From Rhodovulum bhavnagarense (GTDB lineage Bacteria; Pseudomonadota; Alphaproteobacteria; Rhodobacterales; Rhodobacteraceae): 64,000 nucleotides of DNA. The stretch covers positions 496,001 through 560,000 of the forward strand of contig NZ_SLXU01000001.1 of the NCBI RefSeq assembly GCF_004343505.1, written 5' to 3'. The notes beneath the pieces were generated by a model that worked only from the letters and a program-made list of their open reading frames with translations, was not told the origin of the DNA and did not search any database. The translations under genes and the position numbers were made by a program. This document shows, piece after piece, positions 7,388 to 63,851 of the stretch. Position 1 is the stretch's first letter, and each line of letters opens with the position of its first letter.

Positions 7388-8502
7388 GCCCGGGTCTCCC
7401 CCGGCAGGCGCCGCCGCCGGCCTGAGAGCGTGATCAGCAAGGCGCCCATCGCGATACCTAGGCCCGGTGCGAGGTAGCTGACCATCCACAGGCTTGCATC
7501 GCGCCTGGCCATATCGGCCGCAGAGTTGTCGACGAGGTGGACCCCGATCAACAGCACCACCGCCAGCGCGATCTGCCGTCCGACGCCAAACCGTGAAAAC
7601 CCGCCCAGCAAGAGCGCCCCATAACCGATCAACGCCCCTGCCACTGCGAGAAGAGGTGCGGAAAAGCGGGCATGGGCCTCTTGCAGAGCTTCGGCGCGCG
7701 TCGCCCCGGTCGCCCGCAGCAAGGCGTGTGGCGGATCAAGAAGCGTAAGCGTGGACTGGACCCTGAGCCGCTGTGGCTGGGGTACGCGGGCGGCCAGCAG
7801 AGCGCCAATATCATAGGTGAAATCGTCAAAACCCGCAGTCGACAGACGCCGCGTCTCATGGATGAGGACCTGCGCCATTCCGTCGAACATTACCAGCTTG
7901 GGGCCGGTCTCGCTCTCGACGAGCAGGGCGCGCTTGGCGGTGTAGGTGGTACGCCGGTCCTCGCGCCGCGCATCCGACAGGAACATGTCGCGCAATTCGC
8001 CCGCCGGGGTAATTTCGCGGATGTAAAACGTGATGCCGGGGGCGGGGTGGAGGAACTGCCCTTCTGACATGAACCGGGCGGTGATATCGCGAGAAATCTC
8101 GTTGCTTCGCTCGGAAAGCTGGGCCTGGCTGGCCGGCACCAAGGCATGGGTCAGAACCGAGGCGATCAGCGCCACGATCGCCCCGAAGACCAGCACTGGC
8201 CGCGCGAGCCGCCAGGGGCCGCAGCCGACCGCCTGCATCACAACCAGTTCGCTTTCGTTGGTCAAGCGGTTCATCACCTGGATCGTCCCGGCAAAGGCGG
8301 CCAGCGGTAGAACCAGGCGGATTATATTGGGCAGGCCGAGCGCGGTGAATTCAAGGAATACAAGCGCCGATTGCCCGTCGCCGATCAGTTGTTCAAACAG
8401 TTTGACCGCCTGGTTGAGCCAGTAGATCGACACCAGGACAAGCGCGAAGAAGCTGAACAAGATGGTCAGCTGCGACAGCATATATCTGTCGAATCTGGGC
8501 AC
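7384..8502 (-). CDS. lptF: LptF, LPS export ABC transporter permease
   Basis: This gene encodes 372 residues and is the first gene of the six-gene minus-strand operon lptF-lptG-lptD-surA-like-pdxA-rsmA. It shares the LptG plan: an N-terminal helix (MLSQLTILFSFFALVLVSIYWL), a membrane pair around LPLAAFAGTIQVMNRLTNESELVVMQAVG, a periplasmic domain (about residues 125-265) and C-terminal helices. The SELVVMQAVG coupling-helix sequence contacts the LptB ATPase in characterised homologues; lptB is not in this window. The 127-base gap to the divergent pepA must hold the operon promoter. Confidence 0.94.
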   Translation of the reverse strand: MPRFDRYMLSQLTILFSFFALVLVSIYWLNQAVKLFEQLIGDGQSALVFLEFTALGLPNIIRLVLPLAAFAGTIQVMNRLTNESELVVMQAVGCGPWRLARPVLVFGAIVALIASVLTHALVPASQAQLSERSNEISRDITARFMSEGQFLHPAPGITFYIREITPAGELRDMFLSDARREDRRTTYTAKRALLVESETGPKLVMFDGMAQVLIHETRRLSTAGFDDFTYDIGALLAARVPQPQRLRVQSTLTLLDPPHALLRATGATRAEALQEAHARFSAPLLAVAGALIGYGALLLGGFSRFGVGRQIALAVVLLIGVHLVDNSAADMARRDASLWMVSYLAPGLGIAMGALLITLSGRRRRLPGETRA

Positions 8503-8629
8503 TTATCCCCCCAAGGATAGCGGTTTCGCGAGACACTAGAACAATCGGCAGTGGTCGAAAACTGCTATCTGGTCAAGTTCGGGACAGAACACTAGGTAGA
8601 GGGCAACCAACCGGAATACGGAGCCAGCC

Positions 8630-10099
8630 ATGACCACGCCCATCGCCATCACCTTTGCCGAAACCGATCTAGACGCGATCCAGGCATCGCCGGGCCGGGT
8701 CGCGGTTCTGGTCGATGGCGAGGGGCGGCTTGATCCCGGTGCGCGGCGGGTCAATCGGCTCATGCGCGGGGCACTTGCGCGCTTTGTCGAAAGTGAGGCG
8801 TTTTCCAAGTTGAAACCGGGCGAGGCGGTCGCGCTGGCCTATCCGGCGGGCATGGCTGCGCAGGCAGTTGACGTGGTCAGGTTGGACCGGCGCCCCGCGC
8901 TGGACGAGGCCCGCAAGGCGGGCGCAGCACTGGCCCGTGCGCAGGGCAAGGCCGATCTCCTGGTGCTGGCCGGATCGAATTCCCGCGCCGGCGACATCGC
9001 CTTTGGCTTGGCATTGCGCGGCTACAGTTTCGATGCGCACAAGACCGGCGAAAAGGTCGTTCCGGGTGCCGTCAGGGTGATGGCCGCCAAGCCCGAAGAA
9101 ATCGCGGCCAAGGCCGGTCCCATGGCGGCAGTGGCCGAAGGCGTGTTCTTTACGCGCGACCTTGTGAACGAGCCTGCGAACATCCTGACCACCGACGATT
9201 TCGCAGCGCGTCTGGCCGCGATGCAGGAACTGGGGCTGGAGGTCGAAATCCTCGAAGAGGAAGATCTGGCAAAGCTCGGGATGCGGGCGTTGTTGGCGGT
9301 GGGCCAAGGTTCGGAGAGCCCCTCCAAGGTCGTGGTGATGCAGTGGCGCGGCGGTCCGGCCGACCAGGCGCCACTGGCGCTGGTCGGAAAGGGCGTTGTG
9401 TTCGATACCGGCGGCATCTCGATCAAGCCCGCGCAAGGCATGGAAGAGATGACCATGGACATGGGCGGCGCCGGTGTCGTGGCCGGGGTGATGCGCGCGC
9501 TGGCGCTGCGCAAGGCACGGGCCAACGTGGTGGGGCTGGTCGGATTGGTAGAAAACATGCCCGACGGTCGCGCGCAGCGCCCCGGCGATGTCGTCAGGAC
9601 GATGAAGGGCGACACGGTCGAGGTCATCAATACCGACGCCGAGGGCCGGTTGGTGCTGTGCGACGTTCTTTGGTACGCGCAGGAACGTTTTGCGCCGGCG
9701 GGGGTGATCGATCTTGCCACGCTGACCGGCGCGATCATCGTCGGGCTGGGGCACCACAATGCCGGTGTATTTTCCAACGACGACACGCTCTGCGCCGCGT
9801 TCCTCAAGGCCGCCGGGGCCGAGGGCGAAGGCGCATGGCGGATGCCGTTGGGCGCGGCCTATGATCGACAGCTTTCTTCGCAGATCGCCGATATGAAGAA
9901 CGTGGGCGGGCGCAGCGCCGGCTCGATCACCGCCGCGCAGTTCCTGCAACGCTTCGTCAAGGAGGGGTGCCCCTGGATTCATCTCGACATCGCGGGTGTT
10001 GCCCGCGTGAGCGAGGAGACGACGCTGGCGCCCAAGGGGGCGACAGGCTGGGGCGTGCTGGCCCTGAACCGCCTCGTGGCGGAACGATTCGAGATGTGA
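8630..10099 (+). CDS. pepA: Leucyl aminopeptidase (M17 family)
   Basis: This gene encodes 489 residues, the usual length for cytosolic M17 leucine aminopeptidases. The N-terminal macro-like domain is divergent. The C-terminal catalytic domain carries the two-metal ligands and catalytic lysine in GKGVVFDTGGISIKP, in MDMGGAG, and in the signature NTDAEGRLVL. The enzyme removes N-terminal amino acids from peptides; some homologues also bind DNA at recombination sites, which cannot be judged here. The start at 8630 has a GGAG about seven bases upstream. It is divergent from lptF and is followed by holC, an arrangement often seen in proteobacteria. Confidence 0.95.
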   Translation: MTTPIAITFAETDLDAIQASPGRVAVLVDGEGRLDPGARRVNRLMRGALARFVESEAFSKLKPGEAVALAYPAGMAAQAVDVVRLDRRPALDEARKAGAALARAQGKADLLVLAGSNSRAGDIAFGLALRGYSFDAHKTGEKVVPGAVRVMAAKPEEIAAKAGPMAAVAEGVFFTRDLVNEPANILTTDDFAARLAAMQELGLEVEILEEEDLAKLGMRALLAVGQGSESPSKVVVMQWRGGPADQAPLALVGKGVVFDTGGISIKPAQGMEEMTMDMGGAGVVAGVMRALALRKARANVVGLVGLVENMPDGRAQRPGDVVRTMKGDTVEVINTDAEGRLVLCDVLWYAQERFAPAGVIDLATLTGAIIVGLGHHNAGVFSNDDTLCAAFLKAAGAEGEGAWRMPLGAAYDRQLSSQIADMKNVGGRSAGSITAAQFLQRFVKEGCPWIHLDIAGVARVSEETTLAPKGATGWGVLALNRLVAERFEM

Positions 10100-62737: not shown

Positions 62738-62782
62738 ATAAAAGAAAGCGCCCGCGCGGGCCATACGGGCCGGCGCGGGCGC
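62738..62782 (-). terminator. Rho-independent terminator of the triple-repeat gene
   Basis: On the minus strand GCGCCCGCGC-type arms (62767-62782 and 62748-62762) form a stem of about 15 pairs with one mismatch and a four-base loop, followed by TTTCTTTTAT (62738-62747). It lies 18 bases after the gene's stop, which supports that gene being expressed. Confidence 0.85.
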
Positions 62783-62800: not shown

Positions 62801-63127
62801 TTACTGAACGTGCGCCGCGATGCCGTAATAGGCGCGTTTGGACAGCAGTTTCCAGCCCATCCAGCTCGACAGGGGCGTGGGGTTGCTGGTCGTCAATTCG
62901 ACATGACCCTCGCCCGTTCCGCCAAGTACCGGCCAGTTCATAGCGCTGGACAGCGGCGTGGGATTGCCGGTCGTCAGTTCGACCTGACGGGTGTTTTTCG
63001 ACAGGCAGTCGACACCTAGCATGTCAGAAAACGGCGTGGAGCTGGCGCTGCGGTCAAAGGTGACATCGGTCATGCGGTCCTTGCTGGACAGCTTCGGAAG
63101 CCAGTCGTCCCAGATATACTTGGTCAT
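62801..63127 (-). CDS. Unrecognised triple-repeat protein divergent from pucBA
   Basis: This gene encodes 108 residues. I do not recognise the family. After a tryptophan-rich head (MTKYIWDDWLPKLSSKDRM), three copies of a 26-27-residue unit follow, at about residues 22-47, 49-74 and 76-101. Copies 2 and 3 share VELTT(G/S)NPTPLSSxMxW; copy 1 is degenerate (SSTPFSDMLG). The tail is basic and aromatic (KLLSKRAYYGIAAHVQ). There is no clear membrane helix or signal peptide. AGGAGG lies four bases before ATG 63127 and a strong terminator follows the stop. Its position beside pucBA suggests a light-harvesting accessory, perhaps a linker or a gamma-like subunit comparable in size to PucE of Rhodobacter capsulatus. 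That is inference; I could not match the sequence. Confidence 0.75.
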   Translation of the reverse strand: MTKYIWDDWLPKLSSKDRMTDVTFDRSASSTPFSDMLGVDCLSKNTRQVELTTGNPTPLSSAMNWPVLGGTGEGHVELTTSNPTPLSSWMGWKLLSKRAYYGIAAHVQ

Positions 63128-63253
63128 GTTTCCTCCTGGTTCATGCTCGCGCATCGTTGCAGGTCGAGCGGGTGCGTTTGAGGCCCGACGAGAACGACAT
63201 ATTCCAAGTCGGCGCGCCCCATTACCCCACCATGTCACGAAAAATTCAATGGC

Positions 63254-63334: not shown

Positions 63335-63352
63335 TGTAAGGCTGCGTTGACA
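63335..63352 (+). promoter_or_regulatory. PpsR/CrtJ-type site overlapping the pucB -35 box
   Basis: TGT (63335-63337), twelve bases, ACA (63350-63352) exactly matches the TGT-N12-ACA recognised by PpsR/CrtJ, the aerobic repressor of photosynthesis genes. Its right end lies in TTGACA (63347-63352), a perfect -35 hexamer, so binding would block RNA polymerase directly. Confidence 0.75.
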
Positions 63353-63516: not shown

Positions 63517-63672
63517 ATGACTGACGATATGGACAAGGTCTGGCCGACCGGCCTGACGCTCGCCGAAGCTGAAGAGGTGCACAAGCAGCTCATCGACGGC
63601 ACCCGTGTGTTCGGCGCGATCGCGCTGTTCGCGCACTTCCTGGCCGCCGTTGCCACGCCGTGGCTCGGCTAA
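63517..63672 (+). CDS. pucB: LH2 (B800-850 type) light-harvesting beta chain
   Basis: This gene encodes 51 residues. The chain resembles Rhodobacter capsulatus Puc[21 protein letters not shown], then [20 protein letters not shown] and [11 protein letters not shown]. The membrane helix carries His40, which ligates the B850 bacteriochlorophyll; His22 lies in the polar head near the membrane surface. The C-terminal ATPWLG is conserved. GGGGAG precedes the ATG. pucA follows after 23 bases. The PpsR-type site upstream indicates light and oxygen control. Confidence 0.96.
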
Positions 63673-63695: not shown

Positions 63696-63851
63696 ATGAA
63701 CAACGCGAAAATGTGGCTGGTCGTTAAGCCGACCGTGGGCATCCCGCTCTTCCTGACGGCCGTCGCCCTCAGCTCGTTCCTGGTGCATGCTGGCCTGGTG
63801 CTGAACACCACCTGGATCGGCGACTACCACAACGGCACCTCGGCCGAGTAA
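63696..63851 (+). CDS. pucA: LH2 light-harvesting alpha chain
   Basis: This gene encodes 51 residues. MNNAKMWLVVKPTVGIPLFL, then TAVALSSFLVHAGLVLNTTW and IGDYHNGTSAE, closely follow R. capsulatus PucA. His31 ligates B850. The C-terminal hydrogen-bond donors to the B850 acetyl groups appear as Tyr44-His45, where Rhodobacter has Tyr-Tyr or Tyr-Trp. The C-terminus is short, lacking the alanine-valine tail seen in R. capsulatus. AGGAGG lies nine bases before the ATG. pucC is expected next but would be past the window edge. Confidence 0.96.
   Translation: MNNAKMWLVVKPTVGIPLFLTAVALSSFLVHAGLVLNTTWIGDYHNGTSAE

Follow-up and report, generated by a model that had tools for sequence, protein, structure and literature searches.

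The LH2 antenna of the textbooks consists of alpha and beta polypeptides and pigments, its gamma polypeptide having been reported as a peculiarity of Rhodopseudomonas. The gene pucC encodes an LH2 assembly factor and, in Rhodobacter capsulatus, puc operon genes located after pucC provide the accessory LH2 proteins PucE and PucD. Gamma of Rps. palustris LH2 is described as an extended ribbon near the cytoplasmic side, which encloses six of the nine alpha-beta pairs and possesses six repeats, the serine of each ligating one extra BChl a; the same paper states that gamma is found only in Rhodopseudomonas (PMC9618040). The protein is present in the PDB as chain S of 7zcu (97 residues, 16-residue period) and also in 7zdi, 7ze3 and 7ze8. 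It corresponds to RPA1495, a locus number close to those of pucBe and pucAe (RPA1491/1492), according to PMC5069747. The LH1 gamma and gamma-like polypeptides (Blastochloris; Rhodopila globiformis) are likewise accessory polypeptides of light-harvesting rings, the one of Rhodopila globiformis being a 22-residue hydrophobic integral membrane peptide (PMC9640540).

Here, we analyzed a 64,000-nucleotide stretch of Rhodovulum bhavnagarense DNA (contig NZ_SLXU01000001.1, positions 496,001 to 560,000; hereafter the window), in which a tandem-repeat protein is encoded beside pucBA. Because other bacterial families encode its relatives next to these antenna genes, this protein is probably an overlooked part, or an assembly helper, of the LH2 antenna. 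Unlike the Rhodopila peptide, it carries repeats, and its hydrophilic character (GRAVY -0.40) speaks against a single hydrophobic transmembrane segment.

The repeat-protein gene and its locus

The gene is located at positions 62801-63127 on the minus strand, from an ATG start to a stop codon at 62801-62803. The length of 108 residues is counted from the ATG, an upstream GTG being given as the start in the automatic ORF list. The frame is open and, as stated in a preliminary description of this DNA, the protein presents three repeats, with TP dipeptides at residues 31, 57 and 84. With coordinates derived from the frame, unit 1 (residues 20-46, core STPFSDMLG) lies at 62990..63070, unit 2 (residues 46-72, core NPTPLSSAMNWPVL) at 62912..62992 and unit 3 (residues 73-99, core NPTPLSSWMGWKLL) at 62831..62911, all on the minus strand. 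The duplication is indeed visible at the DNA level, copies 2 and 3 sharing 45 of 60 bases at an offset of 81 compared to at most 32 in 500 codon shuffles.

We compared the protein with several collections. Pfam and PHROGs gave zero matches, the stress domain PF11181 discussed below included, and the best E-values in NCBIfam (0.03) and in the PDB (0.059) were insignificant. Neither the window protein nor one of its relatives from outside the genus had a match at E<=0.1 in a plasmid collection. An AlphaFold2 model of the window protein, computed with two sequences, had a pLDDT of 30 and was uninformative. Among the matches listed in a search of open-licence papers, no title or abstract opening described this gene or its relatives. 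Nevertheless, the frame at 62801-63127 is a real gene, since the protein, which belongs to class A of its family, had matches in 16/16 Rhodovulum genomes and the dN/dS values were 0.13, 0.23, 0.25 and 0.27 in four close pairs. Over all 120 pairs, many of which are saturated, pN/pS had a median of 0.67 and a maximum of 1.0.

The gene is transcribed divergently from pucB (LH2 beta, 63517-63672) and pucA (LH2 alpha, 63696-63851), which both lie on the plus strand and both score over the PF00556 cut-off, confirming the layout first described. It has a consensus ribosome-binding site, AGGAGG at 63132..63137 (minus strand), as had been noted. For the terminator attributed to the gene, we recovered a strong terminator-like hairpin with a U-tract on the minus strand (62740..62782; fold of -39.4 kcal/mol, z -3.84) which lies past the stop codon and is followed by UUUCUUUU, though it is absent from the list produced by the simple terminator scan. 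In the intergenic region between the repeat-protein gene and pucB, we observed a TGT-N12-ACA pattern at 63335..63352 (no strand assigned), which we take to be a PpsR/CrtJ-type consensus. This pattern was found in 15/15 class A/pucB intergenic regions. The nine sites within the window, compared to a mean of 4.7 in shuffles, are near chance; it is the conservation of the site that counts, and not the number of sites in the window.

Conservation within Rhodovulum

A scan of GTDB genome contigs gave a single relative, in Rhodovulum adriaticum DSM 2781 (85% identical). All 16 Rhodovulum genomes contain reaction-centre genes and four LH gene matches each, and together they hold 55 members of the family, two to four per genome. 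Sorted by sequence, these members comprise 15 of class A, one A-like (in genome G003), 24 of class B/C, 13 of class D and two others, and their common repeat is about VELxTxNPTPLSSxMGWPLLSxRK. The class A gene is divergent from pucBA in 15/16 genomes, and the other 40 of the 55 members are not beside puc genes. In the remaining genome, G003, no class A gene adjoins pucBA and the A-like gene is located elsewhere. Of the 15 puc-linked class A loci, 14 also have ndk nearby; therefore, the linkage between class A and pucBA within the genus is probably one inherited arrangement.

The preliminary description had considered the repeat duplication fairly recent. This view had to be abandoned: each of the 16 proteins of class A or A-like type contains the repeat units, the middle unit being degenerate in genome G008, and the duplication is thus older than the genus. 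The mean identities between genomes agree with this dating (0.61 for repeat 2 with repeat 2, 0.68 for repeat 3 with repeat 3 and 0.55 for repeat 2 with repeat 3, in a count where the G008 units are mis-assigned).

puc-linked relatives outside the genus

We then searched for relatives at increasing taxonomic distance. In a sample of 394 genomes of the window's family, convincing matches were limited to two, both of this genus, and 292 genomes of its order gave no further match at E<=1e-4. Weak family matches outside the genus (three with E of 5e-4 to 9e-3, and 13 with E of 4e-4 to 1e-2) were short, several of them with stops, and were treated as noise. When 398 genomes of the phylum were searched with a repeat profile (A1), two from outside the genus matched at E<=1e-4, G604 (7.4e-6) and G815; the latter was rejected for an in-frame stop and no puc genes. 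The G604 gene sits between pucA and pucC (PF00556, PF03209) and encodes a protein of 246 residues, about 100 N-terminal ones followed by repeats such as NPAPLSSLFGMKTLT. Proteins of this type, called X hereafter, were found in 4/12 genomes of the G604 family and in 6/61 of its order, those four included. A class-wide X search matched 14/367 genomes, namely the window's own, ten with an X containing repeats (G604 included) and three that were dropped: G1148 and G1328 have the N-terminal-type domain only, with no repeats and no puc genes found, and the G1091 match is an unrelated frame. In all, we retained 15 distinct X genes with repeats, under ten family labels (loci L120, L129-L131, L137, L138, L152-L159 and L161).

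In these other families of the class, X adjoins pucBA in 15/15 loci. Judged from profiles and gene order, a repeat family linked to LH2 genes thus spans several families of the class Alphaproteobacteria. The expectation that homologues always adjoin pucBA holds for X and for class A (15/16 genomes), and fails for the 40 other members within the genus. Thirteen of the 15 loci have X between pucBA and pucC, with all these genes on one strand; in L152, X and pucC are about 2.2 kb apart, with other ORFs in the gap, and L157 and L158 carry another pucBA pair after X. The X repeats of L157 and L158 include GEPKL units, which bear some likeness to GEPLI in gamma of Rps. palustris. In L159, close to the end of a contig, X and pucBA converge. 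In L161 (genome G1103, 8079-9421), X is divergent from pucBA as in the window, the pucBA products are close to those of the window (78% and 64% identity), and two TGTN12ACA sites lie between X and pucBA, one of them 79 bases before X. This layout could be an intermediate step linking the operon to the divergent arrangement. The TGTN12ACA pattern was observed within 400 bases before pucB in 12/15 X loci.

Of the 14 X loci that have a pucC in the vicinity, 13 (L120, L129-L131, L137, L138, L152-L158) carry a peptide deformylase-like gene directly after pucC, and PF01327 was confirmed in the two that were tested. L161 has no such gene, a weaker one (40%) was found near pucB in L159, and three Rhodovulum genomes tested gave no deformylase-like match. 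In LH2, the modified Met1 of the alpha polypeptide ligates B800; a dedicated deformylase may therefore govern that end. Concerning the N-terminal domain of X, two of six members showed a weak likeness to the YflT heat-induced stress domain (PF11181; best E 0.0079, a match that does not pass the cut-off).

To relate the window protein to X, we compared their profiles. By hhalign, class A (16 sequences) and X (4 sequences) aligned with a probability of 96.8 and an E-value of 2.9e-10 over 72 columns, all within the repeats. In the window's genome, the X profile had the window gene as its one match (E 2.6e-4, with 7 of the 15 candidates scored), aligning at positions 151-232 of 234 only, with the X N-terminal domain missing. 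The window protein shows the repeat type [ND]P[TA]PLSS..G..LLS of the PLSS-repeat, puc-linked family formed by X and class A, and its gene adjoins pucBA as the others do; the definition used does not include the N-terminal domain. The STPFSD of window unit 1 resembles PSPLSD, the first unit of X, and the later X units have NPAPLSS. Since the repeats are compositionally biased, profile scores alone are insufficient to prove the relation; it is convincing because the linkage to pucBA is shared and was not used in the searches. The two types differ in that X has about 100 extra N-terminal residues and lies mostly inside the operon (mostly pucB-pucA-X-pucC-deformylase), whereas the gene of the window is transcribed away from pucBA, in a genome that also encodes paralogues.

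Comparison with the LH2 gamma polypeptide

Gamma and the proteins described here are all short, LH2-linked tandem-repeat proteins. The gamma repeats, EYKGxSGxPLI with Ser ligands, differ from those of the window protein, which have 26-27 residues with PTPLSS and Trp, and X differs from gamma by its extra N-terminal domain. The 16-residue period of gamma, one per alpha-beta pair, is shared by X and not by the window class. Indeed, the spacings between GxxLL cores of X (n=42) were of 15-16 residues in 19 cases and of 32 in nine, i.e. 28/42, and pooled identity peaked at lags 16 (z 14.9) and 32 (z 14.6), these z values being inflated by related sequences. Steps of 25-26 residues are also present in X of L137, L138 and L153. 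Class A and class B/C of the window's genus step by 26-27 residues (lag 26, z 29.8; lag 27, z 20.1), and show a smaller peak at 16-17 (z 5.7-7.2). A G-x-P-L-[LI] core, in a pattern that also accepts K and V at the fourth place, is likewise common to gamma and X, and is enriched relative to controls: using this pattern, which was chosen after the sequences of both gamma and X had been seen, we counted six cores in 91 residues of gamma, 12 in 1399 residues of six X, 26 in 6440 residues of the 55 genus members and 41 in 121743 residues of controls.

Profiles and shuffles gave no homology between gamma and the window protein or the class A profile. For X, the signal by hhalign was at most weak (probability 17.7, E 0.0014). 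The X score for gamma (profiles A5 and A6) was attained 0 and 1 times in 2000 residue shuffles, and 37 and 82 times in 2000 period-preserving shuffles. When the X profile was searched against the PDB, gamma was not among the matches at E<=10. With these tests failed or weak, we do not accept homology to gamma, nor do we claim that the protein is gamma.

Possible role in LH2

We estimate at roughly 85% the probability that the window gene and X serve LH2. We lean, by a little, towards a service as a ring-binding component similar to gamma, an analogy that is plausible as a hypothesis and has the solved LH2 repeat ribbon as its mechanistic precedent. The window protein would then be a short form of X, deprived of the N-terminal domain and encoded divergently from pucBA, and the repeat protein would bind the LH2 ring, lying along it in an extended form. 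A role for repeat Ser or Trp residues in holding extra bacteriochlorophyll is speculative. The earlier suggestion of an LH2 linker is strongly supported in its linkage part by the 15/15 X loci beside pucBA; its binding part is kept here as a proposal.

Alternatively, the repeats could transiently hold several nascent alpha/beta polypeptides or rings and pass them to PucC, in which case the protein would be an LH2 assembly or targeting factor absent from the finished ring. The position of X before pucC and the deformylase-like gene, a context of maturation genes found in 13/15 X loci, makes an assembly role possible, and the faint YflT likeness of its N-terminal domain points in the same direction. 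However, X has the repeat period of a known structural ribbon and, in Rhodovulum, the gene lies on the side of pucBA opposite to pucC, lacks the X N-terminal domain and is found in genomes without a deformylase-like match (three tested). Overall, we regard an assembly factor as the main alternative, less likely than a ring-binding component. The family might also have a general, perhaps stress-related function in the genus, its puc neighbourhood being an accident of inherited synteny. This would agree with the 40 of 55 members located elsewhere, with the presumed resemblance of class B promoters to heat-shock promoters, and with a linkage that probably goes back to one event within the genus, as ndk beside class A indicates. 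Such an accident is hard to square with X being beside pucBA in every locus of the other families, the divergent X of G1103 included, and we regard it as improbable.

Divergent transcription from a shared region is common for regulators, and the arrangement of the window gene could accordingly suit a regulator of puc expression or a light/redox sensor for the LH2 level. Yet family searches matched no DNA-binding or sensor domain in the window protein or X, the repeats are short and most X genes are inside the operon, which leaves a regulatory role very improbable. Returning to the ring-binding reading, a broader version can be formulated: many Alphaproteobacteria would possess LH2 rings with a ribbon subunit of a second class, so far unrecognised and either independent of gamma or very distant from it, whose 16- or 26-residue repeats would each clasp alpha-beta pairs and ligate extra bacteriochlorophyll, and Rhodovulum would have multiplied this subunit into a few paralogues serving different rings or stress conditions. 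We propose this version tentatively, as its correctness is doubtful. That several families encode a repeat protein next to pucBA suggests a wider occurrence of ring-binding ribbons, or of dedicated assembly proteins, than has been thought, and class A and X provide concrete genes for testing LH2 assembly, its sizing and the supply of extra pigment.

Paralogues in Rhodovulum

The 40 members located away from puc genes showed no TGT-N12-ACA pattern within 350 bases upstream (0/40, the start codons of L045 and L086 being mis-set). Among the loci listed around these paralogues, no common function of the neighbouring genes was seen by eye. Upstream of 12/24 class B/C members, we found a CTTG-N16-20-CCAT element, compared to 8/667 control upstream regions; the pattern was framed after the alignment had been seen, and the members are related to each other. 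Ten of the 12 cases fall among the 14 members assigned by eye to class B. The element resembles, in our judgement, heat-shock promoters. It lies 77-82 bases before the class B start in L059, L061, L064, L068, L071, L072, L074, L077, L078 and L082, and a conserved GACGCGGCGAAAA-like block precedes it in class B. In three class B members (L064, L071 and L078), the first repeats are replaced by N-terminal tandem units of about 10 residues, TNPQVETKTF-like. The class D paralogues (L045, L054, L055, L057, L083, L088-L091) have a basic C-terminus, RRRSKTRLRTG-like, and their neighbours include one or two genes for HAD phosphatases, likened by eye to gph and cbbY.
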